64,000 bases of DNA from Rhodobacteraceae bacterium Alg231-04 (GTDB taxonomy: Bacteria; Pseudomonadota; Alphaproteobacteria; Rhodobacterales; Rhodobacteraceae), in assembly GCA_900143635.1 (NCBI GenBank), contig FREY01000001.1, positions 686,390 through 750,389 on the forward strand. The letters run 5' to 3'. Each line of letters begins with the position of its first letter. The stretch's first letter is position 1. The notes under the pieces are model-generated. The model had not been told where the DNA came from, did no database searches, and saw only the letters and a list, made by a program, of their open reading frames with translations. Shown piece after piece: positions 6,314 to 56,478 of this stretch. The translations under genes and the position numbers were made by a program.

Positions 6314-6611
6314 AACAATTTCCCCCGGCTAGCACACAAAGTACAAACCGTGCAGTTATGGGAGGCGCTTCTTTTTATTATACGGGCCCTAAATAATCCT
6401 TTTTTTATACGCAGAAATGTCTGGTTCCCGCGAATTAATGCGGGGCAAGCGGGTTCCTGTCTTAGAGGCAAAAAATACGCCTCTTCCCGTTGCAGACTGC
6501 CCCAGCCTATACATTTACCTGAACTGGGCGCACTGCGTCTGACTTTACTTGTTTTGAGCGGGCCCTGCGGTTACCCACAGGCACGGCTTAAGTACTAAAA
6601 GGCTAATAAAA
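6314..6611. other. divergent intergenic region rpoH / cobU
   Basis: 298 bases with visibly more A+T than neighbouring DNA. It holds the presumed rpoH promoter area (TATAAT on the minus strand at 6377-6382) and two GGAAC pentamers on the minus strand that could be ECF-sigma -35 elements, but neither has a convincing partner at normal spacing. On the plus strand only the AAAAGG ribosome site of the next gene (6597-6602) is clear. No gene is seen. Confidence 0.4.
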
Positions 6612-7130
6612 TTGTCCCCGCGAGTCACATTTATTCTGGGAGGTGCTGCCTCCGGAAAATCCGCTTTCGCCGAGCAGATTTGCATTAAATCCACAAAACC
6701 AATGATTTACCTCGCGACTTCACAAGTATTTGATGACGAAATGCGTGCAAAAGTTAACAAGCATATCGTGCAACGCGGGGCCGGATGGACAACCTACGAG
6801 GAAGCATTCAACCCTGCGGAGATTCTTTCAAAGTTAACTTATCCACAGATATGCCTGCTCGATTGCGCGACCATGTGGATATCTAATCACCTTCTGGCTG
6901 AAAGTGACTTAGAATCAGTTCAGAATCAGCTCATCGAGGGAATCACCTCCTGCGAATCGGATCTGGTTATCGTGTCGAATGAGACCGGAATGGGCGTCGT
7001 TCCTGACAATGCACTCGCCCGGCGCTTTCGCGAGGTACAGGGTCGACTGAACATCGAACTGGCCAAAATCGCCGATTGCGTGGTGCAGGTCACGGCCGGT
7101 CTGCCGTTGGTTCTGAAGGGTAAGCTGTGA
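6612..7130 (+). CDS. cobU: bifunctional adenosylcobinamide kinase / adenosylcobinamide-phosphate guanylyltransferase
   Basis: 172 residues (CobU/CobP). Phosphorylates adenosylcobinamide and then transfers GMP, preparing the nucleotide loop of cobalamin. Motifs: P-loop GGAASGKS (10-17), the candidate guanylylated His51 in NKHIVQRGAGWTTYEE, and VSNETGMGVVP (121-131) near the nucleotide site. The start is TTG at 6612 with AAAAGG nine bases upstream; no ATG precedes the P-loop in this frame. The first two thirds are noticeably richer in A+T than the surrounding genes, and G+C rises again toward the 3' end. It overlaps the phosphatase gene. No other corrin-ring genes are nearby, so this is an isolated late-pathway pair. 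Confidence 0.9.
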   Translation: MSPRVTFILGGAASGKSAFAEQICIKSTKPMIYLATSQVFDDEMRAKVNKHIVQRGAGWTTYEEAFNPAEILSKLTYPQICLLDCATMWISNHLLAESDLESVQNQLIEGITSCESDLVIVSNETGMGVVPDNALARRFREVQGRLNIELAKIADCVVQVTAGLPLVLKGKL

Positions 7131-7708
7131 TCACCCGGCTGTTTCTGGTGCGCCACGGGCCGACCCATGCAAAGTCCATGGTCGGCTGGTCAGACATTCC
7201 CGCCGACCTGTCCGATACCGCTGCCATTTCCCGGCTGGAGCAATTTCTGCCCGCGCAGGCCTTGGTGATCTCCTCCGATCTGATCCGCGCCGTACATACC
7301 GCCGATGCCATTCAGGGACCCCGCCAGCGCCTGCCCCATCAGCCTGCCTTGCGGGAAATCCACTTTGGCGACTGGGAGCTGCGCACCTGGGCCGAGGTCG
7401 ACGCCGAAGACCCCGAAGGTATCCGCGCCTATTGGGAAAACCCCGGCGACACCGCCCCACCCGGCGGCGAAAGCTGGAACGCTGTGCGCAGACGTGTCGA
7501 CGCGGCCATGGATGCGCTGATTGCACGTCACAGGGGGCAGGACCTGATCGTTACCGGCCATTTTGGTCAGATCCTGACGCAGGTTCAGCGGGCCCTGAAC
7601 ATCACCGCAGACGAGGCCTTCGGCCATAAGATCGACAACCTCTCGGTCACCGAGGTTTCCCATGGGCCGGATGGCTGGCGCACGGGCCGGATCAATCACT
7701 GTCCGTGA
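7127..7708 (+). CDS. histidine phosphatase family protein, probable alpha-ribazole phosphatase (CobC-like)
   Basis: 193 residues of the phosphoglycerate-mutase/acid-phosphatase superfamily. The catalytic RHG motif is at residues 8-10 (LFLVRHGPTHAKS), with a second histidine in VTGHFGQIL near residue 143. The GTG start overlaps the cobU stop (GTGA), so the two genes are translationally coupled. That favours the CobC role, removing phosphate from alpha-ribazole 5'-phosphate in nucleotide-loop assembly. Members of this family are hard to separate by sequence, so the substrate is inferred from context. Confidence 0.82.
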   Translation: MITRLFLVRHGPTHAKSMVGWSDIPADLSDTAAISRLEQFLPAQALVISSDLIRAVHTADAIQGPRQRLPHQPALREIHFGDWELRTWAEVDAEDPEGIRAYWENPGDTAPPGGESWNAVRRRVDAAMDALIARHRGQDLIVTGHFGQILTQVQRALNITADEAFGHKIDNLSVTEVSHGPDGWRTGRINHCP

Positions 7709-7768
7709 AGACCCCACTCACAATCGATCATTTTACCAATTGCGCCGAAACGTCTTAGGCTCACCGCC

Positions 7769-8455
7769 ATGACATATGATCTTTATATTGGCGACAAAAT
7801 GTACTCCAGCTGGTCGCTGCGCGGCTGGCTTATGCTGGAGAAATTCAACCTTCCCCATCAGGCGCATATGATCGGGCTGTACTCCGGAACGATGGCCGCC
7901 GACATGGCGCATCTGGCCCCGGCCCGTCTGGTGCCGGCCCTGCGCACGCCCGAAGGCACGGTGGTGGGTGAAAGCCTCGCTATGGCCGAAACCCTTGCAG
8001 AACGCCATCCCGAGGCCGGCCTCTGGCCCGCAGATCCCGCCCAGCGCGCCACCGCCCGCTGGCTCTGTTCTGAAATGACGTCCGGCTTCTTTGCCCTGCG
8101 CGGCGACTGCGCCATGCAGCTCTCCCACATATGGGAGGATTTCTCGCCCACTGAAGCCGTGCTTGGCGACCTCGCCCGCATAGAGACACTATGGGATCAC
8201 GCCCGCGAAATCTCAGGCAACAAGGAGGGCTGGCTGTTCGGGGACTACTCATTGGCCGATGTCTTTTATGCACCTGCAGCGGCGCGGATCATTGGCTATG
8301 ATCTGCCCGTCTCGACTGCTGCGCGCGCCTATTGCAAGCGGGTCATTGCAGATCCGGCGTTCAAACGCTGGCGGGCCGACGCGCAGACCGTCACCTATGA
8401 TCCTGAACCCTATGCACTGGACCTCCCGCGCAAGCCCTGGTCGGAGGTTTCCTGA
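7769..8455 (+). CDS. glutathione S-transferase family protein
   Basis: 228 residues with a thioredoxin-like N-terminal GST domain and a helical C-terminal domain. The N-terminus (MTYDLYIGDKMYSSWSLRGW) resembles the YfcF-like class, in which a serine in the SSWSLR segment replaces tyrosine as the glutathione-activating residue. The cis-Pro turn is in LVPALRTPEGTVVGESLA near 56-72. No operon partner is evident. The substrate is unknown; a role in thiol or xenobiotic handling is only family-level inference. Confidence 0.85.
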   Translation: MTYDLYIGDKMYSSWSLRGWLMLEKFNLPHQAHMIGLYSGTMAADMAHLAPARLVPALRTPEGTVVGESLAMAETLAERHPEAGLWPADPAQRATARWLCSEMTSGFFALRGDCAMQLSHIWEDFSPTEAVLGDLARIETLWDHAREISGNKEGWLFGDYSLADVFYAPAAARIIGYDLPVSTAARAYCKRVIADPAFKRWRADAQTVTYDPEPYALDLPRKPWSEVS

Positions 8456-8544
8456 TCGAATTGATGGCGGCTTTACGGCGCCGTTAATCATTCGGAAACC
8501 ATAAATCCAAACCATCGGTGCGGCGCAAGCTGGAGCCCGCACCG

Positions 8545-10056
8545 ATGATCGCACGTGTCCACACAGTAGCCTTCCAAGGCGTCGAGGCTCGCCCGGTCGA
8601 AGTGCAATGCGCTGTCGCCCCCGGCCTGCCGGCCTTTTCCGTCGTAGGCCTGCCCGACAAAGCGGTGAGTGAAGCACGCGACAGGGTGCGTTCGGCATTT
8701 TCGTCGATGTCCATCGCCCTGCCCTCCAAACGCATCACCATCAATCTGTCACCTGCTGATCTGCCCAAGGAAGGCAGCCATTTCGATCTGCCCATCGCGC
8801 TGGCGCTGATGGCGGCGCTGGAAATCATACCGATGGACATGGCGGCAGAAACCATCGCCTTGGGCGAGCTTTCGCTGGATGGAACGCTTGTCCCGGTCCT
8901 TGGCGCCCTGCCCGCCGCAATGACAGCTGCTGAGCTGGGCAAGACCCTGATCTGTCCTGCCAGTTCCGGCGCCGAAGCAGCCTGGGTTGGTGCGGCGACA
9001 GTCTATGGTGCCGCCAGCCTGCACGCAGTAGTGCAACATTTCATCGGCCAGTCACCGATTGCCCCAGCCCTGCCCGGCGAGGCTGACTTTGATCCTGCCT
9101 CAAAGGATCTGCGCGATGTGAAGGGGCAGGAACGCGCCAAACGCGCATTGGAAATCGCCGCTGCTGGCCGCCATCACTTTCTGATGGTCGGCACGCCCGG
9201 TTCCGGAAAATCCATGTTGGCCGCAAGGCTGCCGTCCATCTTGCCGCCCCTCACTCCGGCCGAGGCGCTGGAGACCTCAATGGTTCATTCCCTTTGCGGG
9301 CTGATCAAGGAAGGCGGCATCAGCCGTGCGCGCCCTTTCCGTGAACCACATCACACAGCCTCCATGGCGGCTATCGTTGGCGGCGGCCGCCGGGCCCAAC
9401 CGGGCGAGATCAGCCTTGCCCATAATGGCGTTCTCTTTCTGGACGAGCTGCCGGAATTTGCCCGCGCCGTTTTGGAAACCCTGCGCCAACCGATCGAGGC
9501 GGGTGAGGTCATGGTGGCGCGCGCCAATGCCCATGTGAAATACCCCAGCCGCTTCCTGCTCGCCGCCGCTGCCAACCCCTGCAAATGCGGCTATCTGGCC
9601 GATCCCGGCCGCGCCTGTTCACGCGCGCCAGTTTGCGGCGAGGATTATCTGGGCCGCATTTCCGGCCCCCTGATGGACCGGTTCGATCTGCGCGTGGACG
9701 TGCCGCCGGTGGTTTTCACCGATCTTAATCTGCCGCCCAGCGCTGAAGGTTCGCATGAGGCGGAGATCCGTGTCGCGGCTGCGCGTGAAATACAGGCAGC
9801 CAGATACAAGGCCCACCCCGGCATCCGCCAGAACGCCGACGCCGAGGGAACCCTGCTAGAAGAAGCCGCCGCCCCCGACACCGAGAGCCGCGATCTGTTG
9901 TTGAAAGCCGCCGAACGCTTTGGACTGACGGCACGCGGCTATCACCGCGTGCTGCGGGTCGCGCGCACGATTGCCGATCTGGAAGGCGCAAGGAACATGC
10001 GCCGCCCCCATGTGGCCGAGGCGCTGAGCTACCGGCTGGCAGGCTGGAGCGCTTAA
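8545..10056 (+). CDS. comM: YifB/ComM family Mg-chelatase-like AAA+ ATPase
   Basis: About 503 residues. An N-terminal ChlI-like (Lon-protease-fold) domain ([20 protein letters not shown]...) is followed by an AAA+ core with Walker A GTPGSGKS, Walker B FLDELPEF and a C-terminal Mg-chelatase domain with a cysteine-rich insertion (NPCKCGY...[12 protein letters not shown]). ComM promotes branch migration during natural transformation in bacteria where it was studied; in others the function is untested. The start is set at MIARVH, with GGAG at 8532-8535 nine bases upstream. An in-frame GTG nine codons earlier has no ribosome site. Its 3' end overlaps that of gshB by four bases on the opposite strand. 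Confidence 0.93.
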
Positions 10057-10985
10057 AGCTTGGCCTCGATTGCTTCCCAGATCTTTGCGGCGATATTCAC
10101 GCCATCAAACCGCTCCAGCTCCTGAATACCGGTGGGCGAGGTCACGTTGATCTCGGTCAGGTAATCGCCGATCACGTCGATGCCCACAAAGACCTGTCCC
10201 TTTTCCTTCAGCAACGGGCCGATGGCGGCGCAGATTTCCAGATCACGCTCGGTCAGGCCGATCTTTTCCGGGCGTCCGCCCACATGCATGTTCGACCGGG
10301 TCTCACCTGCTGCAGGCACGCGGTTGATGGCACCAACCGGTTCGCCGTCGACCAGAATCACCCGCTTGTCGCCATTGCTGACATCCGGCAGGAACTTCTG
10401 CACGATCAGCGGCTCGCGGCTGAAACCGGTGAACAGCTCGTGCAGCGAGGTGAGGTTTCGATCATTGGCATCCAGCCGGAACACACCGGCACCACCATTG
10501 CCATACAACGGCTTCAAGATGATATCGCCGTGTTTGGCTTTGAATTCCTTGATCGTCTCAAGATCACGCGCCACGGTTGTCGGCGGCGTCAGGTCCTGAA
10601 AATCCAGCACCAGCAGTTTTTCGGGGTAGTTGCGCACCCAAAAGGGATCATTCACCACCAGTGTCTGACCGGCCAGCTTGTCCAGCAGATGGGTCGAGGT
10701 GATGTAATGCATATCAAACGGCGGGTCCTGACGCAGCCAGATCACGTCGTAATCCGCCAGATCCACCTTTTCCACCGGGCCGAGGTCCACATGGTTGCCC
10801 TGTTCGCGACGCACAACCATGGTCTGGCCGCGCGCGGTGATGCGACCTTCCTCAAAGGCGAGGTGGTCGGGCGTGTAATAGAACAGCTCGTGACCGCGCA
10901 GCTGGGCTTCTTCAGCGATGCGAAAGCTGCTGTCGGCGTTGATGTCGACCGATTGGATCGGATCCATCTGGAAGGCGATTTTCAT
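10053..10985 (-). CDS. gshB: glutathione synthetase
   Basis: 310 residues, ATP-grasp ligase joining gamma-glutamylcysteine to glycine. Prokaryotic GshB features: [20 protein letters not shown] at the start, [22 protein letters not shown] near 79-100, [14 protein letters not shown] near 150, the [17 protein letters not shown] strand near 205, and [22 protein letters not shown] near 263, carrying the metal-binding Glu and Asn. The start was chosen at MKIAFQM, which has GAAGGAA eight bases upstream; earlier in-frame ATGs lack this. It is the last gene of a minus-strand group rsmI-yraN-gshB and converges on comM with overlapping stop codons. Confidence 0.95.
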
Positions 10986-11047
10986 GGGGCGTAATTCCTT
11001 CATCTTTGTCGGCATACATGGCGCAGCATTGCGGCCTGTTCAATGGG

Positions 11048-11419
11048 TCAGCCCTGACCAAAGGCATTTTCAAGGATCTGCACCGCGCCGGTGCCATCCA
11101 CGAGCACCGCGTCAAAGCGGCATTCCGTCAGGCTGCCACCCGGCTCACCCTCCAGAAACTCCGCAGCGGCCGTCATGATCCGACCTATCTGCGCGGCCCC
11201 GAGACTGGCCGCAGCGGCGTCAAAGGTGGCGCTCTGTTTGACTTCGGCAAAAACCACCAACCCGTGGCCGCGCAGGATCAGGTCGATTTCTCCGCCCCGC
11301 CCGCGCCAGCGGTATTCTGCAACCACATAGCCCTGTTCGTCATACGCCCTTGCGGCAATGCCTTCGGCAGCGGCTCCGGCTTGATGGGCGGCTGCACCGC
11401 GTTCAGAGCGCCCCGTCAC
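11048..11419 (-). CDS. YraN family protein (UPF0102), nuclease-fold
   Basis: 123 residues. Family features: GAAAEGIAARAYDEQGYVV, then the restriction-endonuclease-like core YRWRGRGGEIDLILRGHGLVVFAEVKQS near 37-65, with an Asp and a Glu-x-Lys triad typical of PD-(D/E)xK enzymes. Its biochemical role is not established. It starts four bases after the rsmI stop, an arrangement common in proteobacteria, and is followed by gshB. Confidence 0.88.
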   Translation of the reverse strand: MTGRSERGAAAHQAGAAAEGIAARAYDEQGYVVAEYRWRGRGGEIDLILRGHGLVVFAEVKQSATFDAAAASLGAAQIGRIMTAAAEFLEGEPGGSLTECRFDAVLVDGTGAVQILENAFGQG

Positions 11420-11423
11420 CGGC

Positions 11424-12281
11424 TCAGTCCTCTTTCGCCAGATTCAGCGCCAGCTGGTATACTTTGCGGCGCGGTAGGTCATGCAGTTTGGCGACGATGT
11501 CGGCAGCATCCTTGACCCGGTTGTTCTTGAGCGCGGCACGCAGGTCGCTTTCCAGATCACTTTCATTCACCGCCTCGGCGCGGTTGCGGTCGATCAGGAT
11601 CACGATCTCGCCCTTCACGCTAGCCTCGGCCAGCTGGGCGGCCAGTTCCGGCAGGGTATCGCGGCGCACTTCTTCGAATTTCTTGGTCAGCTCGCGGCAC
11701 ATCGCCGCCTGCCGGTCACCCAGCACCGTTGCCATATCCGCCAGTGATGCCGCCACGCGCTTTGGAGATTCGTAAAAGATCAGCGTGGCGGGGATCTCTT
11801 TCAGCTCCTCCAGCCGTTTGCAGCGCGCCACGGTCGCATTGGGCAGGAAGCCGCCGAAGAAAAACGCATCTGTCGGCAGGCCTGCCAGCGTCAGCGCAGT
11901 GATGCCCGCGGTGGCGCCGGGCGCGCAGGTCACCGTGTGGCCCGCCTCGGCTGCGGCCTTGCTGAGCTCATAACCCGGATCGGCAATCAGCGGCATCCCC
12001 GCTTCCGAGGCATAGGCGACCGATTTGCCTTCAGCCAAGGCTGCAAGAAGCTTGGCGCGCGCGTTTTCGCCGGAATGATCGTGATAGGCAAAGACGCGGC
12101 GGCCCTCCAGCGGCACGCCGTGAATTTCCATCAGACGGCGCAAGGAGCGGGTGTCTTCTGCCGCTATCACATCGGCCGAGGCCAGCACGTCCAGTGCGCG
12201 CAGCGTAATGTCGCGCGCCGTGCCGATCGGTGTGGCCACGAAGTAAAGCCCCGCGGACAATCTGACTTTCTGGTGATTCAA
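11424..12281 (-). CDS. rsmI: 16S rRNA (cytidine(1402)-2'-O)-methyltransferase
   Basis: 285 residues with the tetrapyrrole-methylase fold. RsmI 2'-O-methylates C1402 in the decoding centre of 16S rRNA using S-adenosylmethionine. Motifs: LYFVATPIGTARDITLRALDVL near 12-33, AAEDTRSLRRLMEIHGV near 40-55, EAGMPLIADPGYELSKAA near 92-110 and FFFGGFLPN near 138. It leads a minus-strand cluster (rsmI-yraN-gshB) diverging from the LpoA-like lipoprotein gene. Confidence 0.95.
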   Translation of the reverse strand: MNHQKVRLSAGLYFVATPIGTARDITLRALDVLASADVIAAEDTRSLRRLMEIHGVPLEGRRVFAYHDHSGENARAKLLAALAEGKSVAYASEAGMPLIADPGYELSKAAAEAGHTVTCAPGATAGITALTLAGLPTDAFFFGGFLPNATVARCKRLEELKEIPATLIFYESPKRVAASLADMATVLGDRQAAMCRELTKKFEEVRRDTLPELAAQLAEASVKGEIVILIDRNRAEAVNESDLESDLRAALKNNRVKDAADIVAKLHDLPRRKVYQLALNLAKED

Positions 12282-12368
12282 CGCTGGACCCGCCCTTGAC
12301 GAAGGTTATTATCGCACCCCAACACCAACACGGCGCATCATCGCCGGATCAGGGAGTTACAGTCCATT

Positions 12369-13544
12369 ATGTTCGCCGTTTTCAAGCCCGCCCGCAAGGT
12401 GGCATTGGCCGCCGTTACCGCCGTTGCAACTCTGGCCCTGACCGCATGTGATCCGATTTCGGTCGGCGGTGGTGGCCCAAGCATCAACACCTCCAAACCG
12501 GTTCCGGTGGCGCTGCTGGTGCCGCGCGGGTCTGCCTCTTCGGGGGATCAGGCCCTTGCACAGAGCCTGGAGAACGCCGCGCGACTGGCGATGGGGGATC
12601 TGAACGGCGTGAAAATTGACCTGCGCATCTACGACACTGCTGGCAACGCCGAGGTTGCAGCCGCAGCTGCCACACAAGCCGTCAGCGAAGGCGCGCGCAT
12701 TTTGCTGGGCCCGGTCTATGCCGAAGCGGCCAATGCCGCCGGCATCGCCGCCGCCAAGCGCAACGTGAACATTCTTGCCTTTTCCAACAACCCGGCGATT
12801 GCCGGCGGCAATGTCTTCATTCTGGGCAATACCTTTGACAATAAGGCCACCCGATTGACCAGCTTTGCCGCCCGTCAGGGCAAGGGCAACATGCTGGTGG
12901 TCAGCGGCAATAATGCTGCCGGTCAGGCCGGCCAGCAGGCGATCTCCTCTGCGGCGTCACGCACTGGCGCAAATGTCGCCGGTATTGTGTCTTATGAGCA
13001 GTCCCAAAATGGGGTGATCAGCGCCATCAGCGACATCCGGAACCAGGCCTCGGCCAGCGGCGCCACCTCGCTGATGATGACAGCCACCACAGCCGGCGCG
13101 CTGCCGCTGCTGACACAGCTGCTGCCTGAAGCCGGGGTGAAACCCGAAGACATCCAGTACATCGGCCTGACCCGCTGGGACATCCCGGCGCAAACTCTGG
13201 CACTGCCCGGCGTTCAGGGGGGCTGGTTCGCCCTGCCTGACCCGGTGAAATCGCAAGGGTTCAAATCCCGCTACACCGCCGCCTACGGCAGCTCCCCGCA
13301 TCCTATCGGTGGTCTGGCCTATGACGGTATCGCCGCCATCGGCGCACTGGTCGGTCAAGGCAAGTCCGACGCGCTGACCGGTGCGGCGCTGACCCAGGGA
13401 TCCGGCTTCCAGGGCGTCAACGGCATCTTCCGCCTGCGCGCAGATGGCACCAATGAACGCGGCCTCGCGGTCGCCACGATCCAAGAACAGAAGGTGGTCG
13501 TCATTGACCCAGCTCCAACAAGCTTCGCAGGCGCCGGATTCTGA
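12369..13544 (+). CDS. penicillin-binding protein activator (LpoA/YraM-like lipoprotein)
   Basis: 391 residues. The N-terminal signal ends in a lipobox (LALTAC, Cys near 27), so the protein is lipid-anchored, probably in the outer membrane facing the periplasm. The rest is a type-I periplasmic-binding fold (VALLVPRGSASSGDQALAQS, ARILLGPVYAEAANAAGIAA, GLAYDGIAAIGALVG) as in the C-terminal domain of LpoA, which stimulates PBP1A peptidoglycan synthesis. The TPR-like N-terminal half of enterobacterial LpoA is absent, as is usual in alphaproteobacteria. It sits next to rsmI, mirroring the yraM-yraL(rsmI)-yraN order in E. coli. Its 3' end overlaps the probable glnD start. Confidence 0.88.
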   Translation: MFAVFKPARKVALAAVTAVATLALTACDPISVGGGGPSINTSKPVPVALLVPRGSASSGDQALAQSLENAARLAMGDLNGVKIDLRIYDTAGNAEVAAAAATQAVSEGARILLGPVYAEAANAAGIAAAKRNVNILAFSNNPAIAGGNVFILGNTFDNKATRLTSFAARQGKGNMLVVSGNNAAGQAGQQAISSAASRTGANVAGIVSYEQSQNGVISAISDIRNQASASGATSLMMTATTAGALPLLTQLLPEAGVKPEDIQYIGLTRWDIPAQTLALPGVQGGWFALPDPVKSQGFKSRYTAAYGSSPHPIGGLAYDGIAAIGALVGQGKSDALTGAALTQGSGFQGVNGIFRLRADGTNERGLAVATIQEQKVVVIDPAPTSFAGAGF

Positions 13545-47843: not shown

Positions 47844-48158
47844 ATGGATCCGCAAACCGAGATTGAACTTCAGGCCGCCGCTTTCCGCCGCTTGCAAAAA
47901 CACCTGATGGAAGACCGCACTGACGCGCAGAACATCGATATGATGAACCTGGCCGGTTTCTGCCGCAACTGCCTGTCGCGCTGGTATCAGGAAGCGGCCA
48001 ATGAAAAGGGCATCGAGATGAGCAAGGACGAAGCCCGCGAGATTTTCTACGGCATGACCATGGCAGAGTGGAAAGCCAATTATCAAACCGATGCCAGCCC
48101 GGAAAAGCAGGCTGAGTTTGAGGTCGCCTTCAAAGAAAACGTGACCGACAAGGGCTGA
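47844..48158 (+). CDS. DUF1244 domain-containing protein
   Basis: 104 residues, small acidic helical protein. The conserved core is AAAFRRLQKHLMEDRTDAQNIDMMNLAGFCRNCLSRWYQEAANEKG (10-55), with the family's paired Cys in FCRNC, followed by MSKDEAREIFYGMTMAEWKANYQ. Widespread in alphaproteobacteria; a single-domain protein of unknown role. AGGGAGA lies upstream. Convergent with patB. Confidence 0.9.
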   Translation: MDPQTEIELQAAAFRRLQKHLMEDRTDAQNIDMMNLAGFCRNCLSRWYQEAANEKGIEMSKDEAREIFYGMTMAEWKANYQTDASPEKQAEFEVAFKENVTDKG

Positions 48159-48163
48159 CCCCG

Positions 48164-49348
48164 TCAAAGGCCGCCCAGCGCGGCCTCCAGCCTGTCTAAC
48201 GCGGCTTCAAGCACAGCACGACGGCAGGCGATATTGACCCGCGCAAAACCGCGCCCGGCCTCGCCAAAGGCAATGCCGCGGGTCACACCCCAGCCCGCCC
48301 TCTGACGCAAAAACGCGGTCAGCTCGGCTGGTTCCAGCCCCAATCCGCGAAAATCCACCCACATCAAGAATGTGCCTTCGGGCGGGGTCATCTCGACACC
48401 TGGCATCTGCGCCAACCGGTCAGAGAACAGGGCCGCGTTGCCCTGAATGTAGGAAAGCGCCGCTTTCTGCCAGGCCTCTCCGCCGGTGTAGGCCGCCTCC
48501 ATCGCCACATTGGCAAAGGCGTTGTTCTTGTTGACGGTCAGTCGGCTGTTGGCCTCCAGAAAGGCAGCCCTTCGCCCCTCATCCGGGATCACCGTGAAAG
48601 CCCCGCAGCAGGCCGCAATATTGAAGCCTTTGGCGGGCGACAGGCAGGTTAGCGAATTCGCCGCATGGGCTGGCCCAAGCGAGGTGAAGGGCACATAGCG
48701 GTGGCCCTCAAAGGCCAGATCGCCGTGAATCTCATCGGATATCACCAGGACCCCATGGGCCAGACAGATCTCAGCCAGCTGACGCAATTCCTCTTCCTGC
48801 CAGACCCGTCCAACCGGGTTATGGGGATTACACAGCAACAGCGCCTGCGTGGCGGGGTCCGCCGCTTTGCGCTCAAGATCGTCAAAATCCATCTCATAGC
48901 GCCCGTCGCGCAGCACCAACGGGTTCAGGGCTGCATCGCGGTTGTTTTCCTTCAGGACGTTGAGGAAATCAAAAAAGACTGGCGGCTGCAGGATGACCTT
49001 GCCGCCTGGGCCGGAAAACAGGTTCACCGCCATCGCCAGCGCGTTGAGCACATTGGGCGCTCGCAGAATATGGTTGCGGTCGATCTGCCAGCCGTGGCGG
49101 CGCTCCATCCATCCGGTGAGCGATGGGATCAGGCCGGGCTGGATCGTCTCATAGCCAAAAACCCCATGATCCAGCCGCGCCTGCATCGCCTCACGCACGC
49201 AAGGCGGGGCACGAAAGTCCATGTCGGCAATACCGGCCGCAAACAGCCCCTCGCCATCAGCGCCCAGAACCATAGGATGCACCTTTAGCGTCGGCACTGC
49301 GCGTCGGTCGTTGGGGGTGTTGAACCCGAAGGGATCACTCTGCGTCAT
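48164..49348 (-). CDS. patB: MalY/PatB family aminotransferase / cystathionine beta-lyase
   Basis: 394 residues, PLP fold type I. Motifs: GIADMDFRAPPCVREAM near 38-55, the cofactor-binding LLCNPHNPVGRVWQEEELRQLAEICLAHGVLVISDEIHGDLAFEGH near 170-218, and the Schiff-base Lys in SPAKGFNIAACCGAF near 233. PatB/MalY enzymes cleave C-S bonds of cystathionine and other beta-substituted amino acids. It overlaps the aspartoacylase-type gene by 14 bases and is last in the D-amino-acid cluster, so it may act on a product or substrate of that pathway. That link is inference from position. Confidence 0.88.
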   Translation of the reverse strand: MTQSDPFGFNTPNDRRAVPTLKVHPMVLGADGEGLFAAGIADMDFRAPPCVREAMQARLDHGVFGYETIQPGLIPSLTGWMERRHGWQIDRNHILRAPNVLNALAMAVNLFSGPGGKVILQPPVFFDFLNVLKENNRDAALNPLVLRDGRYEMDFDDLERKAADPATQALLLCNPHNPVGRVWQEEELRQLAEICLAHGVLVISDEIHGDLAFEGHRYVPFTSLGPAHAANSLTCLSPAKGFNIAACCGAFTVIPDEGRRAAFLEANSRLTVNKNNAFANVAMEAAYTGGEAWQKAALSYIQGNAALFSDRLAQMPGVEMTPPEGTFLMWVDFRGLGLEPAELTAFLRQRAGWGVTRGIAFGEAGRGFARVNIACRRAVLEAALDRLEAALGGL

Positions 49349-50336
49349 CAGCCACCTGCACCACCGCATCGCCGCGCCGCACTGGCCCCGGCACCCGTTT
49401 CGCCAGCACAATGCCCGAATAGGGCGAGGTCACGGGCACAGGATCCGCCCACGGCGCGTCCAGCCGGTGCACAAAGCCCAGTACCTCCCCCTCGGCCACC
49501 GCATCGCAAATGTCCTTTTGCGGCTCATAGACCCCGTCCTCATAGGCGTAGACCGAGCCCTGAACATGCAGCTCCCGCGTGCCCTTCGCCGCATCCGGTC
49601 GGTAGGCAGGCAGCATGCCCGCGCAATGCAGCGCCCGTTTCAATCCGCGCAGCGTCAGTGCCAGAATGCCAGGGTCCACCGCACCGCCGCCGCCCAGCTC
49701 TGCCATAATGGGGATCACGCCCTTGCGGTTTGCCCCGCCCATCAGAGTGCGCGCCTTGGACCCCGGCCCGCCGCCTCCGGTGAAGACCCAGGCGAAAGGG
49801 GCATCAAAGGCCTTCTGAAGGTGCTTCAGCTCTGCCGCCGCGTCCGGCGTATGCCCCTGCCCGCGCAGCAGGGTTGGCGGGTAAAACAGCGATGTGCCGC
49901 CGGAATGGAGATCCACCGAATAGCCGCAGCGCGGCAGCAGCTCCGCCTCGATGTAATGGGCGATCACCTCGCTGGGCGTGCCGCGCGGATCACCGGGGAA
50001 CAGACGGTTCATATTGCCATCATCAATGGGCGACGTCCGCATCCCGGCCCCGCAGGCCGGCGCATTGGCCTGCGGCAGCAGGATCAGCTGGCCGCGGATG
50101 TCTTCGGGCTGCAGATCGCGAATCAGCGCGGCAAGAGCAATCTGCCCCTCGTATTCATCACCGTGTACGCCTGCCGACATCAGCATCACCGGCCCGGCCC
50201 CGTTGCGGATGGAGACTATCGGCACCCCGATCCAGCCATAGGCGCTGCGATGCACCGAATGCGGCACCCTCAGGTAGCCCTGATGCTTGCCGTCAGCCTC
50301 CAGATCAATTTCACAGGTTACCGGACTATCACTCAA
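49335..50336 (-). CDS. succinylglutamate desuccinylase / aspartoacylase family deacylase
   Basis: About 333 residues, zinc carboxypeptidase-like (M14) fold. Metal ligands are seen in SAGVHGDEYEGQ (His58, Glu61) and VDLHSGGT (His144); NMNRLFPGDPRG near 108-119 is a family hallmark. The start is TTG at 50336, within the T-run of the upstream terminator; no ATG precedes conserved sequence. It lies between dat and patB in a run with dgcA and dgcN. Its best-supported role there is hydrolysis of N-acetyl-L-glutamate to L-glutamate and acetate. DoeB-type deacetylation of N-acetyl-diaminobutyrate is the main alternative, but no ectoine genes are present. Confidence 0.82.
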   Translation of the reverse strand: MSDSPVTCEIDLEADGKHQGYLRVPHSVHRSAYGWIGVPIVSIRNGAGPVMLMSAGVHGDEYEGQIALAALIRDLQPEDIRGQLILLPQANAPACGAGMRTSPIDDGNMNRLFPGDPRGTPSEVIAHYIEAELLPRCGYSVDLHSGGTSLFYPPTLLRGQGHTPDAAAELKHLQKAFDAPFAWVFTGGGGPGSKARTLMGGANRKGVIPIMAELGGGGAVDPGILALTLRGLKRALHCAGMLPAYRPDAAKGTRELHVQGSVYAYEDGVYEPQKDICDAVAEGEVLGFVHRLDAPWADPVPVTSPYSGIVLAKRVPGPVRRGDAVVQVADDAE

Positions 50337-50368
50337 AACAAGACCCCGCCGCAGGTTGCGCCGGGGTC
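50334..50368 (-). terminator. stem-loop downstream of dat, overlapping the next start codon
   Basis: GACCCC (50342-50347) and GGGGTC (50363-50368) form a stem, followed on the minus strand by TTGTTTTG. It sits 38 bases past the dat stop, and its T-run contains the TTG start of the deacylase gene. It could tune expression between upstream and downstream halves of the cluster. Confidence 0.65.
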
Positions 50369-50405
50369 CAGTCTAAGTCAGCTTGCAGCTTTTGCAATCT
50401 GCGGA

Positions 50406-51266
50406 TCAGATCGCCTTTTTGCGGCTTTCTTCCAGGTAGATCTCGCGCAGGCGTTTCGCAATCGGGCCCGGCGTGCCGTCACCCAGCGTGGCGCCGTCAA
50501 TCTCAACCACGGGCATCACAAAGGCAGAGGCAGAGGTGGTGAAGGCCTCATCGGCTTCTTTGGCTTCATCGATGGTGAACAGGCGCTCTTCGATTTCCAT
50601 CTGCGCTTCTTCGGCCAGACGCAGCACAGCAGCGCGGGTGATGCCGTGCAGGATGTCGTTGGACAGCGGGCGGGTCACGATCTTGCCGTTCTTGACGTAA
50701 TAGGCGTTGTTCGAGGTGCCCTCGGTCACATAACCGTCCTCAATCAGCCAGGCATCGTCACAACCGGCCTTCTTGGCCATCATCTTGCCCATCGACGGGT
50801 ACAAGAGCTGTACGGTCTTGATGTCGCGGCGGCCCCAGCGGATATCCTCGATAGAGATAACCTTGGCGCCTTTTTGCGCCGCCGGGCTATCGGCCAGGCC
50901 GGGCTTGTCCTGAGTGAACAACACCAGCGACGGCGGCGTGTCCTCAGACGGGAAAACGAAATCCCGGTCGCCGTCAGAGCCGCGGGAAACCTGCAGGTAA
51001 ACCAGCCCCTCAACGATGCCATTGTCCTCGACCAGCTTGCGGTGGATCGCCAGCAGCTCTTCTTTGGTGCAGGGGCTGGGCATGTCCAGCTCGTTCAGCG
51101 AGCGGTTCAGGCGCACGGCGTGGCCTTCAAAGTCGATCAGCTTGCCATCCAGAACCGATGTTACCTCGTAAACCGCATCGGCAAACAGGAAGCCACGGTC
51201 AAAGATCGAGACCTTGGCCTCATTTTCCGGCAGGTATTCGCCATTCACATAAACAATACGGGTCAT
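50406..51266 (-). CDS. dat: D-amino-acid transaminase
   Basis: 286 residues, PLP fold type IV. Features: MTRIVYVNGEYLPENEAKVSIFDRGFLFADAVYEV (1-35), the Schiff-base Lys in LLYPSMGKMMAKKAG near 140-155, and WLIEDGYVTEGTSNNAYYVKNGKI near 167-188 carrying the conserved Glu. It exchanges amino groups between D-amino acids, chiefly D-Ala and D-Glu, with 2-oxoglutarate or pyruvate. It follows dgcA in a run with dgcN, consistent with feeding D-glutamate to that pathway. Distinguishing Dat from branched-chain transaminase rests on the FDRGFLFADAVYEV and TEGTSNNAYYV patterns. The start at MTRIVYV has GAAAGT upstream, a weak site. Confidence 0.9.
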   Translation of the reverse strand: MTRIVYVNGEYLPENEAKVSIFDRGFLFADAVYEVTSVLDGKLIDFEGHAVRLNRSLNELDMPSPCTKEELLAIHRKLVEDNGIVEGLVYLQVSRGSDGDRDFVFPSEDTPPSLVLFTQDKPGLADSPAAQKGAKVISIEDIRWGRRDIKTVQLLYPSMGKMMAKKAGCDDAWLIEDGYVTEGTSNNAYYVKNGKIVTRPLSNDILHGITRAAVLRLAEEAQMEIEERLFTIDEAKEADEAFTTSASAFVMPVVEIDGATLGDGTPGPIAKRLREIYLEESRKKAI

Positions 51267-51343
51267 GTTACTTTCCTTATTCTCACCGGGCTCCGCCCGT
51301 TCCTCACTGAAAACGGTCCCCCGGACCGTTTTCCGGGCGTTCG

Positions 51344-52309
51344 TCACCCCCAAAGCGCCGCAACAGGCGGGTGCACGCCGTCGGCATCAAATTTCAGCGG
51401 TTCATCGCGGTCTTCGGCCAACAGAAGCGGCCCGTCAAGGTCTGTTACCAGCGCACCCTGTGCAACAAGCGTGGCCGGTGCCATCGCCAGCGACGATCCA
51501 ACCATACAGCCCACCATCACCTGATAGCCCGCCTCCAGTGCCTCGTCGCGCAGTTTGAGCGCTTCGGTCAGACCGCCGGTCTTATCCAGTTTGATGTTCA
51601 CAACGTCGTATTTTCCGACCAGCTTGGGCAGGCTGGTGCGGTCATGGCAGCTCTCGTCGGCGCAAACGGGCACCGGGCGCTCCATGCCAATCAGCGCGTC
51701 ATCTTCACCAGCTGGCAGCGGCTGTTCGACCAGCTCCACGCCCAGACGCACCAGATGCGGGGCCAGTTCCGCATAAACTTCGGCGCTCCAACCCTCATTG
51801 GCATCAACAATGATTGAGGCATCCGGCGCACCGGCACGCACTGCTTCAAGGCGCGGCATGTCGTCAGCGGTGCCCAGTTTGATCTTCAAGAGCGGGCGAT
51901 GGGCATTCTCTGCCGCCTGTGCCTGCATCTTTTCGGGTGTGTCCAGCGACAGGGTATAGGCGGTGATCTCCGGCCCCGGAGCTTCCAGCCCGGCCAACTC
52001 CCAGACCGACTTGCCTGCCGTCTTGGCTTCCAGATCCCACAGCGCACAATCAACAGCATTGCGCGCCGCACCGGCCGGCAGCAGATCCATCAGATCTTCG
52101 CGGCTGAAGTCTGCGGGCAGACCTTCGATCTCAGCCGTGACACTCTCCAGTGTTTCATTGTAGCGGGCATAGGGCACGCATTCGCCCCAGCCGGTTACCC
52201 CGTCTTTTTCCACCTTTACGGTCAGCACCTTGGCCTCGGTGCGCGATCCGCGCGAGATGGTGAACACCTGCGCCAGTTTGAACACATCGCGGGTAACGGT
52301 GATCTTCAT
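51344..52309 (-). CDS. dgcA: N-acetyl-D-glutamate racemase (enolase superfamily, dipeptide-epimerase type)
   Basis: 321 residues, MR/MLE subgroup of the enolase superfamily. Catalytic set: Lys142-x-Lys144 (LLKIKLG), metal ligands Asp169 (IIVDANEGW), Glu195 (ELVEQPLP) and Asp218 (VCADESCH), and Lys240 (VVNIKLDKTGG). The same signature occurs in L-Ala-D/L-Glu epimerases, but immediate linkage to dgcN and dat favours the N-acetyl-D-Glu racemase role. It would convert N-acetyl-D-glutamate from DgcN to N-acetyl-L-glutamate. Distinguishing the two needs structure-guided comparison. It follows dgcN by 134 bases containing a recurring T-run element, so transcription may be partly reduced. Start MKITVTRD. 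Confidence 0.85.
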   Translation of the reverse strand: MKITVTRDVFKLAQVFTISRGSRTEAKVLTVKVEKDGVTGWGECVPYARYNETLESVTAEIEGLPADFSREDLMDLLPAGAARNAVDCALWDLEAKTAGKSVWELAGLEAPGPEITAYTLSLDTPEKMQAQAAENAHRPLLKIKLGTADDMPRLEAVRAGAPDASIIVDANEGWSAEVYAELAPHLVRLGVELVEQPLPAGEDDALIGMERPVPVCADESCHDRTSLPKLVGKYDVVNIKLDKTGGLTEALKLRDEALEAGYQVMVGCMVGSSLAMAPATLVAQGALVTDLDGPLLLAEDRDEPLKFDADGVHPPVAALWG

Positions 52310-52381
52310 GCCCTGCTCCCAGTCTTCCATAGCAACCAAAGGCGCTGCCCGCATAAGGCGCGCCTCTGGTTTTATCTTTTC

Positions 52382-52404
52382 AAAAAATACACCCGCCGGA
52401 GGCT
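52382..52404 (-). repeat. recurring terminator-like element, copy 2 (after dgcN)
   Basis: On the minus strand AGCCTCCGGCGGGTGTATTTTTTGAAAAGATAAA, close to the copies after coaBC and mcl1. Its hairpin is weaker (only GCC/GGC pairs), so it may be a decayed terminator. It lies between dgcN and dgcA. Confidence 0.55.
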
Positions 52405-52443
52405 TCTGCAATCTCAACAGCCCCCTCCGGCAGAGAGGTTAGA

Positions 52444-53445
52444 TCAGATCGCGGCCAGCGCGTCCACCAGGCGGCCCGCGCCGTGGCGGTATGGGTCTAC
52501 TGCGGGCAGGCCCATCTTCTCTTCGACCTGCGCCAGATAGGTGACGGCCTCATCTTCGCTCAGGTGCTGCGTGTTGACCGAGATACCGACGACCTTACAG
52601 GCCGGGTTCGATTTCTGCGCCAGTGGCAGGGCGGTGTCGCGCAGCTGCTCGAGAGACGGCAGGGTGAAGCCCGGCAGACCACGCATATGTTCGCGGGTCG
52701 GCTCGTGGCAAAGGATCAGCGCGTCGGGCTGGCCGCCGTGGACCAGCGCCATCGTGACACCGGAATAGGAGATGTGGAACAGCGAGCCCTGCCCCTCGAT
52801 CATGTCCCAGTGGTCGTCGTCATTGTTCGGGGTCAGATACTCGACGGCACCAGCCATGAAGTCAGCGACAACCGCGTCCAGCGGCACGCCGTGGCCGGTG
52901 ATCAGGATGCCGGTCTGGCCGGTAGCACGGAAGGTCGATTTCAGCCCGCGCTGCTGCATCTCGGCATCCATTGCCAGGGCCGTATACATCTTGCCAACCG
53001 AACAGTCGGTGCCAACAGCCAGGCAACGCTTGCCGGTGCGGTTCACACCATTTGCAATCGGGTAGCCAACAGTGGGAACGCGCACATCGTGCAGGGTGCC
53101 GCCATGGGTTTGCGCCGCGGCCACCAGATCGCCTTCGTCGCGCAGCAGGTTGTGCAGGCCAGAGGCAATATCATAGCCCATTTCCAGCGCCTGAACCAAA
53201 ACCTCTTTCCAGGCCGCAGAGATCACACCGCCACGGTTGGCAACGCCGATCACCAGCGTCTTGGCGCCGGCTTCCTTGGCCTCGGCCAGGGTCATGTCGG
53301 TCAGCCCGAGGTCAGCGCCGCAGCCCTCCAGACGGATCTGGCCAACGGCGTGATCCGGACGCCAGTCACGGATGCCAATAGCAACTTTGGCGGCCAGCAT
53401 GTCGGGCGCGTCGCCCAGGAACAACAGATACGGGGTCTCGATCAT
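52444..53445 (-). CDS. dgcN: N-acetyltransferase DgcN (DUF1611), D-glutamate pathway
   Basis: 333 residues. An N-terminal Rossmann-like domain (LFLGDAPDMLAAKVAIGIRDWRPDHAVGQIR) is followed by a P-loop NTPase-like domain with CLAVGTDCSVGKMYTALAMDAEMQ (Walker-A-like GTDCSVGK near 147-154) and VEYLTPNNDDDHWDMIEGQGSLFH, the DUF1611 signature. In marine bacteria DgcN acetylates D-glutamate and DgcA racemises the product. It leads the dgcN-dgcA-dat-deacylase-patB run and follows an MFS carrier gene on the same strand. The start is at MIETPYLLF with GAAGGACG upstream. Assignment relies on the characteristic dgcN-dgcA pairing as I recall it. Confidence 0.85.
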   Translation of the reverse strand: MIETPYLLFLGDAPDMLAAKVAIGIRDWRPDHAVGQIRLEGCGADLGLTDMTLAEAKEAGAKTLVIGVANRGGVISAAWKEVLVQALEMGYDIASGLHNLLRDEGDLVAAAQTHGGTLHDVRVPTVGYPIANGVNRTGKRCLAVGTDCSVGKMYTALAMDAEMQQRGLKSTFRATGQTGILITGHGVPLDAVVADFMAGAVEYLTPNNDDDHWDMIEGQGSLFHISYSGVTMALVHGGQPDALILCHEPTREHMRGLPGFTLPSLEQLRDTALPLAQKSNPACKVVGISVNTQHLSEDEAVTYLAQVEEKMGLPAVDPYRHGAGRLVDALAAI

Positions 53446-53598
53446 TACGCGCGTCCTTCTCTCATATTTCGCAGTTGCCGCATCCTGTCGCGAAGCTCCT
53501 GCAAAATCCTCTCGAATTCACCGGGAATACAAACGTATACAGGAACAACGTGCGTTATTTCTTGAAAATCTCGAAGAATCTCCCAAAAAGCTGACGCT

Positions 53599-54849
53599 TT
53601 AGAGCGGTTCCTCCTGTTTCGGGGAATCTTCGGAGGCCCAGGTTTCCGCCTGCAACACCCCCTGTTGGGCCAACCCGATAATACCCACCGCCTGCACTTC
53701 GCCGGTGTCCTCGGGCGCGGCTTCGCGCACCCGCCGGGCGATCGCTATCAGCACCACCAGACCGCCGCAGACAGCAAGCAACAGCTGCAAGCCGCGCCCA
53801 TCCGCCAACGCGATGGAGTTCGGGCCCAGAAGTGTCCCGCCAAACAGGCCCACATTCAGCAGAAACACCATGGCGCCGCTAGCGGGCACGATCTGCGAGG
53901 GGCGCAGCTGGTCATTGGCGTGGGCCACTAGGATCGAATAAACAGGCAGGGTTGCTGCCGCGATCAATGAAAAGCCCACAATGATCCGCGAGGGCGAGGT
54001 ATCCGCCGCCATCCACAGGGCCGTGGCCAAAGTCAGCCCACCTAGTGCGATCACCACGTAGCGGCGGTCCATCTGATCTGACAGCCAGCCAACCGGATAT
54101 TGCACCACCGCCCCTGCGATCAGCGCGATCACCAGCGCGCCCGAGGCCTGGGCCGGTGAAAACCCCTGCTGCAACGCGTAGAGCGGCAACGATATATACC
54201 AGGCCGCGACGGCGATGCTCATCACCACAATCCCTGTCACCGCCATGGGGGAAACGGTTGCCAGCCGAGTGACCGGCATGTGCTCAGGCACAGTGTAGTC
54301 CGGCGCCTTGTTCCCCGATAGCAGCAACGGTACGATAGACAGCGAAATCAAGATGGAGACCACACCGAACAGCAGGTTGCCGCTGGGATCAGGGAAACCC
54401 ACCAGCGCCGTTCCCATGGCCGGTCCCGCCAACTGGATCACGAAATAGATCGACAGTACCTGTGCCCGGATCCGGTTCTCCGCCTTGGCGTTGAGCCAAC
54501 TTTCTGTGATCACATAGAGGCCTGGATAACAGAAACCCGCAAGGAAACGCATGGCGCTCCAACTGCCGGGATCACCGGTCAGCAGATGGATGATTGCGGC
54601 GATAGAGACCAATGAGGCCAGCGCCGAAAATACCCGGATATGGCCCACCTTTTCGACCATGCGCGGGGCCATGACTGTGCCCGCCAAGGCCCCGAACGGG
54701 TAACAGGCCTGCATCACCGAAATGGTGAAATCCGAAAACCCCAACCCGCTACCGCGGATTGTCAGCAGGGTCGCCAGCAGCCCATTGGCTACCATCAACA
54801 TCAGCATGCCCAAGAACAGGGCCCAATTGTCGTACAAAGCGCGTTTCAT
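53599..54849 (-). CDS. MFS transporter
   Basis: 416 residues with about 12 hydrophobic helices. The MFS A-motif-like loops are MVEKVGHIRVFSAL near 64-78 and GWLSDQMDRRYVVIALGG near 255-272. It belongs to the Rhodobacterales MFS set related to YcaD; the substrate is unknown. It is transcribed toward dgcN, 153 bases upstream, so it could import or export substrates of the D-amino-acid pathway. The gap contains a possible promoter, so operon membership is uncertain. Confidence 0.87.
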   Translation of the reverse strand: MKRALYDNWALFLGMLMLMVANGLLATLLTIRGSGLGFSDFTISVMQACYPFGALAGTVMAPRMVEKVGHIRVFSALASLVSIAAIIHLLTGDPGSWSAMRFLAGFCYPGLYVITESWLNAKAENRIRAQVLSIYFVIQLAGPAMGTALVGFPDPSGNLLFGVVSILISLSIVPLLLSGNKAPDYTVPEHMPVTRLATVSPMAVTGIVVMSIAVAAWYISLPLYALQQGFSPAQASGALVIALIAGAVVQYPVGWLSDQMDRRYVVIALGGLTLATALWMAADTSPSRIIVGFSLIAAATLPVYSILVAHANDQLRPSQIVPASGAMVFLLNVGLFGGTLLGPNSIALADGRGLQLLLAVCGGLVVLIAIARRVREAAPEDTGEVQAVGIIGLAQQGVLQAETWASEDSPKQEEPL

Positions 54850-55518: not shown

Positions 55519-56478
55519 ATGAGCTTCCGCCTCCAGCCTGTCGCCCCTGCCCGCCCCAACCGCTGTCAGCTTTTTGGCCCCGGCTCTCGCCCGGCGATTT
55601 TTGAAAAGATGGCCGCCAGCGCGGCGGATGTGATCAATTTGGACCTGGAAGATTCAGTTGCGCCGTCTGACAAAGACAGTGCGCGCGCAAATATCATTCA
55701 GGCGATTTCAGACATCGACTGGGGCGACAAGGTTCTGTCCGTGCGCATCAACGGACTCGACACGCCTTACTGGTACCGCGACGTGGTGGATCTGCTGGAA
55801 CAGGCTGGCGACCGGCTGGATCAGATCATGATCCCCAAGGTTGGCTGCGCCGGTGATCTCTACGCGGTGGACGCGCTTGTCACCTCGATCGAGGCCGCCA
55901 AGGGGCGCTCCAAACGCATCGATTTCGAGGTGATCATCGAAAGTGCTGCGGGCATCGCCCATGTGGAGGAAATCGCCGCCGCCTCACCGCGGCTTGTTGC
56001 GATGAGCCTTGGCGCGGCGGATTTCGCGGCCTCCATGGGCATGCAAACCACCGGCATCGGCGGCACGCAGGAGAACTACTATATGCTGCGCGAAGGCCAG
56101 AAGCACTGGTCCGACCCTTGGCACTGGGCTCAGGCTGCCATTGTCGCCGCTTGCCGTACCCATGGGGTGCTGCCGGTGGACGGGCCCTTTGGTGACTTTT
56201 CAGATGACGAAGGGTTCCGCGCACAGGCGCTGCGGTCGGCCACATTGGGCATGGTCGGCAAATGGGCCATTCACCCCAAGCAGATTGCCATTGCAAACGA
56301 GGTTTTCACCCCCTCCGAGGCCGCAGTGACCGAAGCGCGCGAGATCCTTGCTGCAATGGAAGAGGCCAAGGCCAATGGCGAGGGTGCCACGGTTTACAAA
56401 GGCCGGCTGGTCGACATCGCATCGATCAAACAGGCCGAAGTGATTGTCGCCCAGGCCGAGCTGATCTCAGGCAGCTGA
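55519..56478 (+). CDS. mcl1: L-malyl-CoA / beta-methylmalyl-CoA lyase
   Basis: 319 residues, HpcH/HpaI-citrate lyase superfamily. Begins MSFRLQPVAPARPNRCQLFGPGSRPAIFEKMAASAADVINLDLEDSVAP, almost identical to Rhodobacter Mcl1 as I recall it. Other motifs: MIPKVGCAGDLYAVDAL near 94-110, IESAAGIAHVEEIAA near 140-154, MSLGAADFAASMG near 160-172 and DGPFGDFSDDEGFRAQA near 215. It cleaves L-malyl-CoA to glyoxylate and acetyl-CoA and beta-methylmalyl-CoA to glyoxylate and propionyl-CoA, as in the ethylmalonyl-CoA route for acetate growth. No other ethylmalonyl-CoA genes are in the window. Confidence 0.95.
   Translation: MSFRLQPVAPARPNRCQLFGPGSRPAIFEKMAASAADVINLDLEDSVAPSDKDSARANIIQAISDIDWGDKVLSVRINGLDTPYWYRDVVDLLEQAGDRLDQIMIPKVGCAGDLYAVDALVTSIEAAKGRSKRIDFEVIIESAAGIAHVEEIAAASPRLVAMSLGAADFAASMGMQTTGIGGTQENYYMLREGQKHWSDPWHWAQAAIVAACRTHGVLPVDGPFGDFSDDEGFRAQALRSATLGMVGKWAIHPKQIAIANEVFTPSEAAVTEAREILAAMEEAKANGEGATVYKGRLVDIASIKQAEVIVAQAELISGS

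Follow-up and report, generated by a model that had tools for sequence, protein, structure and literature searches.

The window analysed here, a stretch of 64,000 nucleotides of contig FREY01000001.1 from Rhodobacteraceae bacterium Alg231-04, carries at positions 48164–54849 six consecutive genes, all on the minus strand, which encode a transporter of the major facilitator superfamily (MFS), DgcN, DgcA, a D-amino-acid transaminase (Dat), a zinc deacylase and the C-S lyase PatB. Three of these genes, dgcN, dgcA and dat, form a conserved core that is predicted to lead from D-amino acids to L-glutamate, and the deacylase–patB pair beside the core appears, on balance, to lie outside that route. 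The six genes are likely not one pathway. The deacylase, PatB and the MFS transporter are local additions to the dgcN locus, and relatives of the deacylase–patB pair sit in arsenic-resistance (ars) operons in several genera. An earlier note on this DNA had described the same six genes, all of which were found present and open when the reading frames of the window were read again, and had drawn all of them into the use of D-amino acids.

The core was followed in a sample of 149 genomes of the family, one per genus and including the own genome, of which 113 (the own genome among them) encode a DgcN over the curated cut-off. At the dgcN loci of the 112 other genera, taken with flanks of at most 6 kb upstream and 12 kb downstream and searched with the six proteins, dgcA was found at 108 and dat at 105, and the three genes keep a common order and strand in 104. 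This last figure is made up of 101 loci that pass a strict gap rule and three (L074, L107 and L123) in which dgcN abuts dgcA; the dgcA–dat gap is 300 bp or less in 81 of the strictly colinear loci. The eight misses include two loci that run into contig ends and were counted as misses (L119, L133), one with dat upstream on the opposite strand (L104), three where dat was not found (L098, L122, L140) and two where neither dgcA nor dat was found (L077, L079). At L077 (genome G062) a related MFS gene (52%) lies upstream of dgcN, with no dgcA or dat match in 19 kb. The trio is less common outside the family: in the 87 genomes of other families of the class with a DgcN over the cut-off, comparison of match positions placed dat within 3 kb of dgcN in two (G457, G647) and at a distance of about 7 kb in two (G555, G652), among the dat matches listed. 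The trio is also carried by the Ruegeria TM1040 megaplasmid and by the Vibrio tritonius plasmid pMA35 (L262, 3473–9842), where it is divergent from genes for alanine racemase (alr) and a Na+:alanine symporter; the pMA35 region is a candidate D-alanine utilisation island. The claim that the transaminase belongs with dgcN–dgcA is thus upheld, both by its order and strand across the family and by its recurrence on the V. tritonius plasmid. On plasmids of Pantoea ananatis (L263) and Klebsiella pneumoniae (L264), dgcN–dgcA is directly followed by a peptide/glutathione-type ATP-binding cassette (ABC) transporter (5998–12987), and neither dat nor the deacylase lies within 6 kb on each side. Plasmid records with a match to dgcN numbered 20 for Klebsiella and 12 for Pantoea, the gene neighbourhood being viewed in one of each.

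The other three genes of the window behave differently from the core, in that the same 112 loci hold the MFS gene at two (52% and 30%), PatB at one (33%) and the deacylase at none. Conservation of the six-gene order, on which the earlier note had staked its route in advance, thus extends over dgcN–dgcA–dat and stops short of the deacylase, PatB and the MFS transporter; the participation that it had proposed for these three in the D-amino-acid route is not borne out, and membership of the deacylase in a dgc operon was rejected on its absence from the 112 loci. The boundaries of the surrounding synteny block locate the added genes. In 83 of the 112 loci dgcN has an HpcH-like gene as its divergent neighbour, and the gap between the two is 133–543 bp in 79 of these 83; in the window the gap is about 2.07 kb, with the MFS gene in between. 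On the other side, a DUF1244-like gene is found in 64 of the 101 colinear loci. It lies on the downstream side of dat in 63, is on the opposite strand in 63 and is no more than 150 bp from dat in 18; in the window 2.25 kb separate it from dat, filled by the deacylase and patB. The pair also occurs in G149, a second genome of the genus, where it runs into the same DUF1244 gene and is preceded, on a 3.85-kb contig, by a coenzyme A (CoA)-transferase-like gene and not by dat. Since non-synonymous divergence (dN) is far below synonymous divergence (dS) between the two genomes (dN about 0.09 for the deacylase, with dS of 0.6–1.0, about 0.11 for patB and about 0.09–0.12 overall, versus dS of 0.6–1.1), the pair is under purifying selection and is kept by selection; the proposal that these are dead genes was rejected on the same values and on the open frames in both genomes. 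The G+C content of the deacylase region (window 49000–50500) is 0.65–0.66 against about 0.60 around it, which fits a later acquisition and is weak when taken alone.

The surroundings of the pair elsewhere were examined from the deacylase side first. At a threshold of E ≤1e-90, orthologues occur in 12 of 394 genomes of the family, two in the own genus and ten in others; in the one-per-genus sample they occur in seven (at least 59% identity, the next best match being 42%). A deacylase of Pseudophaeobacter leonis (P0005) stands at 82%. Thirteen loci outside the genus were compared, a set that adds Pacificoceanicola and two plasmids and from which L146 (same contig as L196) and L144 and L174 (same as L145) had been dropped before counting. 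A related PatB is present in the cluster at eight of the 13, one of them a remnant of 40 residues, a threonine/serine-dehydratase-like gene at six, an ars gene at five and dgcN at none. The fullest cluster, found on a plasmid of Ruegeria YS9 and in G009, reads ArsR–deacylase–dehydratase–aquaporin–PatB–ArsH. That of G064 is the same form without ArsH; in G044 (L158) ACR3 replaces the aquaporin; in G036 ArsR sits between deacylase and dehydratase, and ArsD–ArsA come after PatB. Two loci (L159, L194) consist of deacylase and PatB only. In L158, a 40-residue piece of PatB and a 56-residue piece of ArsH lie adjacent to each other between ACR3 and a second ArsR gene, an arrangement that resembles a deletion scar. 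On a Salipiger plasmid (L178, 4892–12183), deacylase, dehydratase and PatB genes lie 2–4 kb from genes for TrxB, thioredoxin, OsmC and glutaredoxin, with genes for a DUF2938 protein and an integrase in between.

The surroundings were examined from the PatB side as well. A PatB of the pair type (61–66% to that of the window) is found in eight of the 149 genera, the own genus included, all other PatB relatives reaching at most 40%; PatB relatives in the broad sense (E ≤1e-60) are present in 138 of the 149 genomes, and the own genome has a second such copy (36%). With the deacylase in seven, this PatB in eight and both in five of the 149 genomes, the two co-occur at p=2.0e-6, or p=2.6e-5 when the own genome is left out and the 148 other genera are counted, and in all five genomes having both the two genes are linked. 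Among PatB loci outside the genus, seven of 12 have an ars gene. Two of the seven come from the three genomes that have this PatB and not the deacylase, G098 (aquaporin–PatB–ArsC–ArsH, with a piece of the dehydratase at the contig end) and G095 (ArsR, a remnant of the dehydratase, aquaporin and PatB). In G003, the third, PatB has none of these neighbours, and the PatB of the SC52 plasmid (L260), 75% to the Ruegeria PatB, stands alone. In phylogenetic trees, a branch with support of 100/99 sets the 14 deacylases of the group apart, and another, with support of 100/100, separates its 12 PatBs from the ordinary PatB of the family. The SC52 PatB and the L158 remnant count among the 12 PatB loci and are absent from the tree, and L197, which has an internal TGA, was excluded from the tree and retained among the 13 deacylase loci. 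Both window proteins are inside clades that hold ars-linked copies and also include copies without ars neighbours. ArsH, ACR3, ArsD, ArsA and ArsC of the clusters pass their curated cut-offs, and of four ArsR proteins scored against the general ArsR/SmtB model (cut-off 55 bits) three pass (59, 58.6 and 55.1) and one misses (54.5). As a control, the ars baits matched one of the 112 dgcN loci, of similar length, and none of 13 loci that hold distant homologues of the deacylase, as against five of the 13 orthologous loci; with the bait source L179 left out, four of 12 deacylase loci match versus one of 112 dgcN loci (p=2.5e-4).

For the core, a course of reactions can be proposed with some support from published work. 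The DgcN–DgcA pathway for D-glutamate in marine bacteria (EC 2.3.1.312 and 5.1.1.25) was reportedly first described in the ISME Journal in 2023, in an account said to include the regulator DgcR. The window resembles it in that both enzymes exceed curated cut-offs and are adjacent and in order, and differs in the transaminase that follows, as it does in the 104 family genera. As far as the available portions of the sources go, DgcN, DgcA and D-glutamate are treated together in PMC10845958, dgcN is treated as a key gene of D-glutamate use in PMC12363236, and a Rhodobacteraceae strain with genes for DgcN, DgcA and a D-amino-acid transaminase grew on D-glutamate and D-alanine (PMC11747546), the corresponding portion of which makes no operon claim for the three. 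Dat would use D-amino acids, for instance D-alanine, as amino donors for 2-oxoglutarate, yielding D-glutamate; DgcN would acetylate this product, and DgcA would racemise N-acetyl-D-glutamate to N-acetyl-L-glutamate. The latter probably joins the general arginine/acetylglutamate pool, and through it would become L-glutamate, because a deacylase of the window type is missing from all 112 other dgcN loci; this last step draws on general biochemistry, and the flow through the core, like every reaction ascribed below to the pair, is put forward as a prediction. For the pair, the zinc deacylase would act on an N-acyl cysteine S-conjugate (or an arsenical adduct bound through a thiol) and take off its N-acyl group; the deacylated conjugate would next undergo beta-elimination by PatB, with a thiol (or thio-arsenical), pyruvate and ammonia as products. 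Inside ars operons the cysteine conjugate may carry arsenic.

Several observations weigh against this separation of core and pair, or against the link of the pair to ars genes. The pair follows dat by 69 bp on the same strand and could be co-transcribed with the core and have been recruited to it locally. The deacylase stands without PatB or ars genes at five of the 13 loci (L147, L162, L195, L196 and L197), and five of the 12 PatB loci have no ars gene (L159, L194, G003 and the SC52 and Salipiger plasmids). The loci that supplied the ars baits (L158, L163 and L179) belong to the very set that was tested with them, no ArsH over the cut-off was found in the own genome, and no ars bait matched in the window, whose copy is accordingly not part of an ars operon. 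The 25 deacylase homologues of other families (43–49% identity) showed none of the neighbours within 1.5-kb flanks, some of which are cut by contig ends, and on this evidence a module of the wider Alphaproteobacteria was rejected; two homologues on Burkholderiales plasmids lacked the partners except for a 25% PatB-like match 7.6 kb off.

Two explanations of the pair itself share a similar, tentative standing. In the first, the deacylase–dehydratase–PatB module would serve the detoxification of organoarsenicals or thiol-arsenicals by stripping N-acylated amino-acid arsenic adducts, and the window copy would be a relocated remnant, still active without an ars pump; we regard this as possible and below even chances. 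It draws on the clusters in which ArsR is divergent from the deacylase and ArsH, ArsC, ACR3 or ArsD–ArsA are near, with ars genes at just five of the 13 deacylase loci and no known arsenic substrate of the module against it. An arsenic role for the window copy is doubtful, because no ArsH of the own genome passes the cut-off and no ars bait matches the window; the own genome also has no dehydratase orthologue (best match 42%). The ars operon of the Sinorhizobium type reportedly has the gene order arsR-aqpS-arsC-arsH. ArsR, aquaporin, ArsC and ArsH likewise occur in the clusters of the pair's relatives, which differ by adding the deacylase, the dehydratase-like enzyme and PatB, whereas the window keeps deacylase and PatB only. 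The available parts of PMC4435449 place the aquaporin AqpS in that operon, and those of PMC4435449 and PMC6205960 count aquaporins of the major intrinsic protein (MIP) family among known ars-operon transporters. Among the papers listed, none describes an ars-linked module of this kind by title and opening of the abstract, in a search outside which most subscription journals lie. A broader version, to which we give only a minority weight, supposes that marine Rhodobacterales possess an undescribed, ArsR-controlled amino-acid branch of arsenic resistance, in which the deacylase, the enzyme resembling threonine dehydratase and a lyase acting on C-S bonds (or possibly on C-As or As-S bonds) would dismantle N-acylated arsenic-amino-acid or arsenic-cysteine adducts, an aquaporin or ACR3 together with ArsC and ArsH would dispose of the freed arsenical, and the window would hold a two-gene descendant relocated beside the D-amino-acid recycling core.

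In the second explanation the pair would scavenge sulfur and nitrogen in general from N-acetyl cysteine S-conjugates (mercapturates), without a link to arsenic or D-amino acids, and ars operons would merely have acquired it; its chances seem to us modest, about those of the arsenical reading. Animals process mercapturates with aminoacylase III and a cysteine-conjugate beta-lyase, and the window pair is alike in joining an AspA-family deacylase to a C-S beta-lyase and different in being bacterial and in having predicted substrates. The stand-alone adjacent pairs at L159 and L194, the trxB, thioredoxin, OsmC and glutaredoxin genes near the Salipiger copy and the C-S lyase family of PatB agree with scavenging; no sulfur gene or transporter was seen to recur with the pair, the aquaporin excepted, and the repeated ars linkage would be left unexplained. 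Among the papers listed on bacterial mercapturate use, none treats this deacylase–patB pair in its title or the opening of its abstract. The route of the earlier note, in which, within a single operon, the deacylase hydrolyses N-acetyl-L-glutamate from DgcN–DgcA and is helped by PatB and the MFS transporter, is improbable: the deacylase does follow dat closely on the same strand, retains its catalytic residues and belongs to a family whose substrates are N-acyl amino acids (the nearest chains of solved structure being 3cdx and DoeB 6twl), but as the closing step it is unsupported by any of the 112 dgcN loci or 13 orthologous deacylase loci, its orthologues reach seven of 149 genera versus 113 for DgcN and stand elsewhere with PatB and ars genes or alone, in G149 a CoA-transferase-like gene and not dat stands before the pair, and at the Pantoea and Klebsiella loci viewed dgcN–dgcA is accompanied by a peptide ABC transporter, the deacylase being absent from the 6 kb shown.

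The assignments of the six proteins rest on the models in Table 1. The MFS protein passes the Pfam model MFS_1 but no NCBIfam cut-off, and Dat passes its subfamily model but stays below the equivalog model TIGR01121 (243 bits, cut-off 277.45). DgcN matches its solved relative 7xrj with 634 bits. The deacylase shares its sequence family and zinc-site motifs with DoeB/EutE, the N-acetyl-L-2,4-diaminobutyrate deacetylase of ectoine degradation; identity with DoeB was rejected on a TIGR02994 score of 219 bits against a cut-off of 402.7, and its neighbours here, dat and a C-S lyase, also differ. The module's partner dehydratase counts among its relatives EutB, a dehydratase that acts in the use of hydroxyectoine, and scores below the EutB cut-off. 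The motifs that the earlier note had read in DgcA, Dat and the deacylase were confirmed: in DgcA, KIK at residue 142, VDANEG at 168, VEQP at 194, CADES at 216 and IKLDK at 239; in Dat, DIK at 148; in the deacylase, HGDE at 58, NMNR at 108, DLHSG at 142 and AELGGGG at 212, with the zinc motif HxxE...H formed by H58, E61 and H144. PatB has SPAKGFN at 236 (393-residue reading). The roles of these residues we take to be those usual in the families. H58, E61, N110, R111, H144 and E213 of the deacylase are conserved at 97% or more in 54 homologues. Since the reading frames of the deacylase and patB overlap by 14 bp, the two are probably translationally coupled; 69 bp separate the deacylase from dat, and 153 bp the MFS gene from dgcN. 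A scan for promoter-like and terminator-like sites gave no lead (two with 2.1 expected, and nine with 6.4 expected, respectively).

Table 1. Genes of the six-gene stretch and its two flanking markers, with model scores and cut-offs in bits.
Gene	Positions	Strand	Model (score; cut-off)	Place and remarks
DUF1244-like small gene	47844–48158	+		convergent with patB; marker of the block conserved downstream of dat
patB, PatB-family C-S beta-lyase	48164–49348	-	TIGR04350 (409; 340)	added cassette, gene 2
AstE/AspA-family deacylase	49335–50336	-	PF24827, AstE_AspA_cat catalytic domain (112; Pfam 25)	added cassette, gene 1; TTG start
dat, D-amino-acid transaminase, fold type IV	50406–51266	-	NF005209 (387; 320)	conserved core
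dgcA, predicted N-acetyl-D-glutamate racemase	51344–52309	-	NF042940 (511; curated 400)	conserved core
dgcN, predicted D-glutamate N-acetyltransferase	52444–53445	-	NF041892 (551; curated 480)	conserved core
MFS transporter	53599–54849	-	PF07690 (103)	between the HpcH-like gene and dgcN
HpcH/HpaI (malyl-CoA-lyase-like) gene	55519–56478	+	PF03328 (139)	usually divergent from dgcN

The ars-linked module related to the pair is the more interesting result, and it corrects a tempting but weak reading of function by position. Its recurrence as deacylase, dehydratase and PatB in ars operons hints at an arsenic or thiol chemistry not found among the described ars functions. The D-glutamate pathway of the family, for its part, appears to be fed by the adjoining D-amino-acid transaminase, and would then be a general outlet for the D-amino acids of peptidoglycan.

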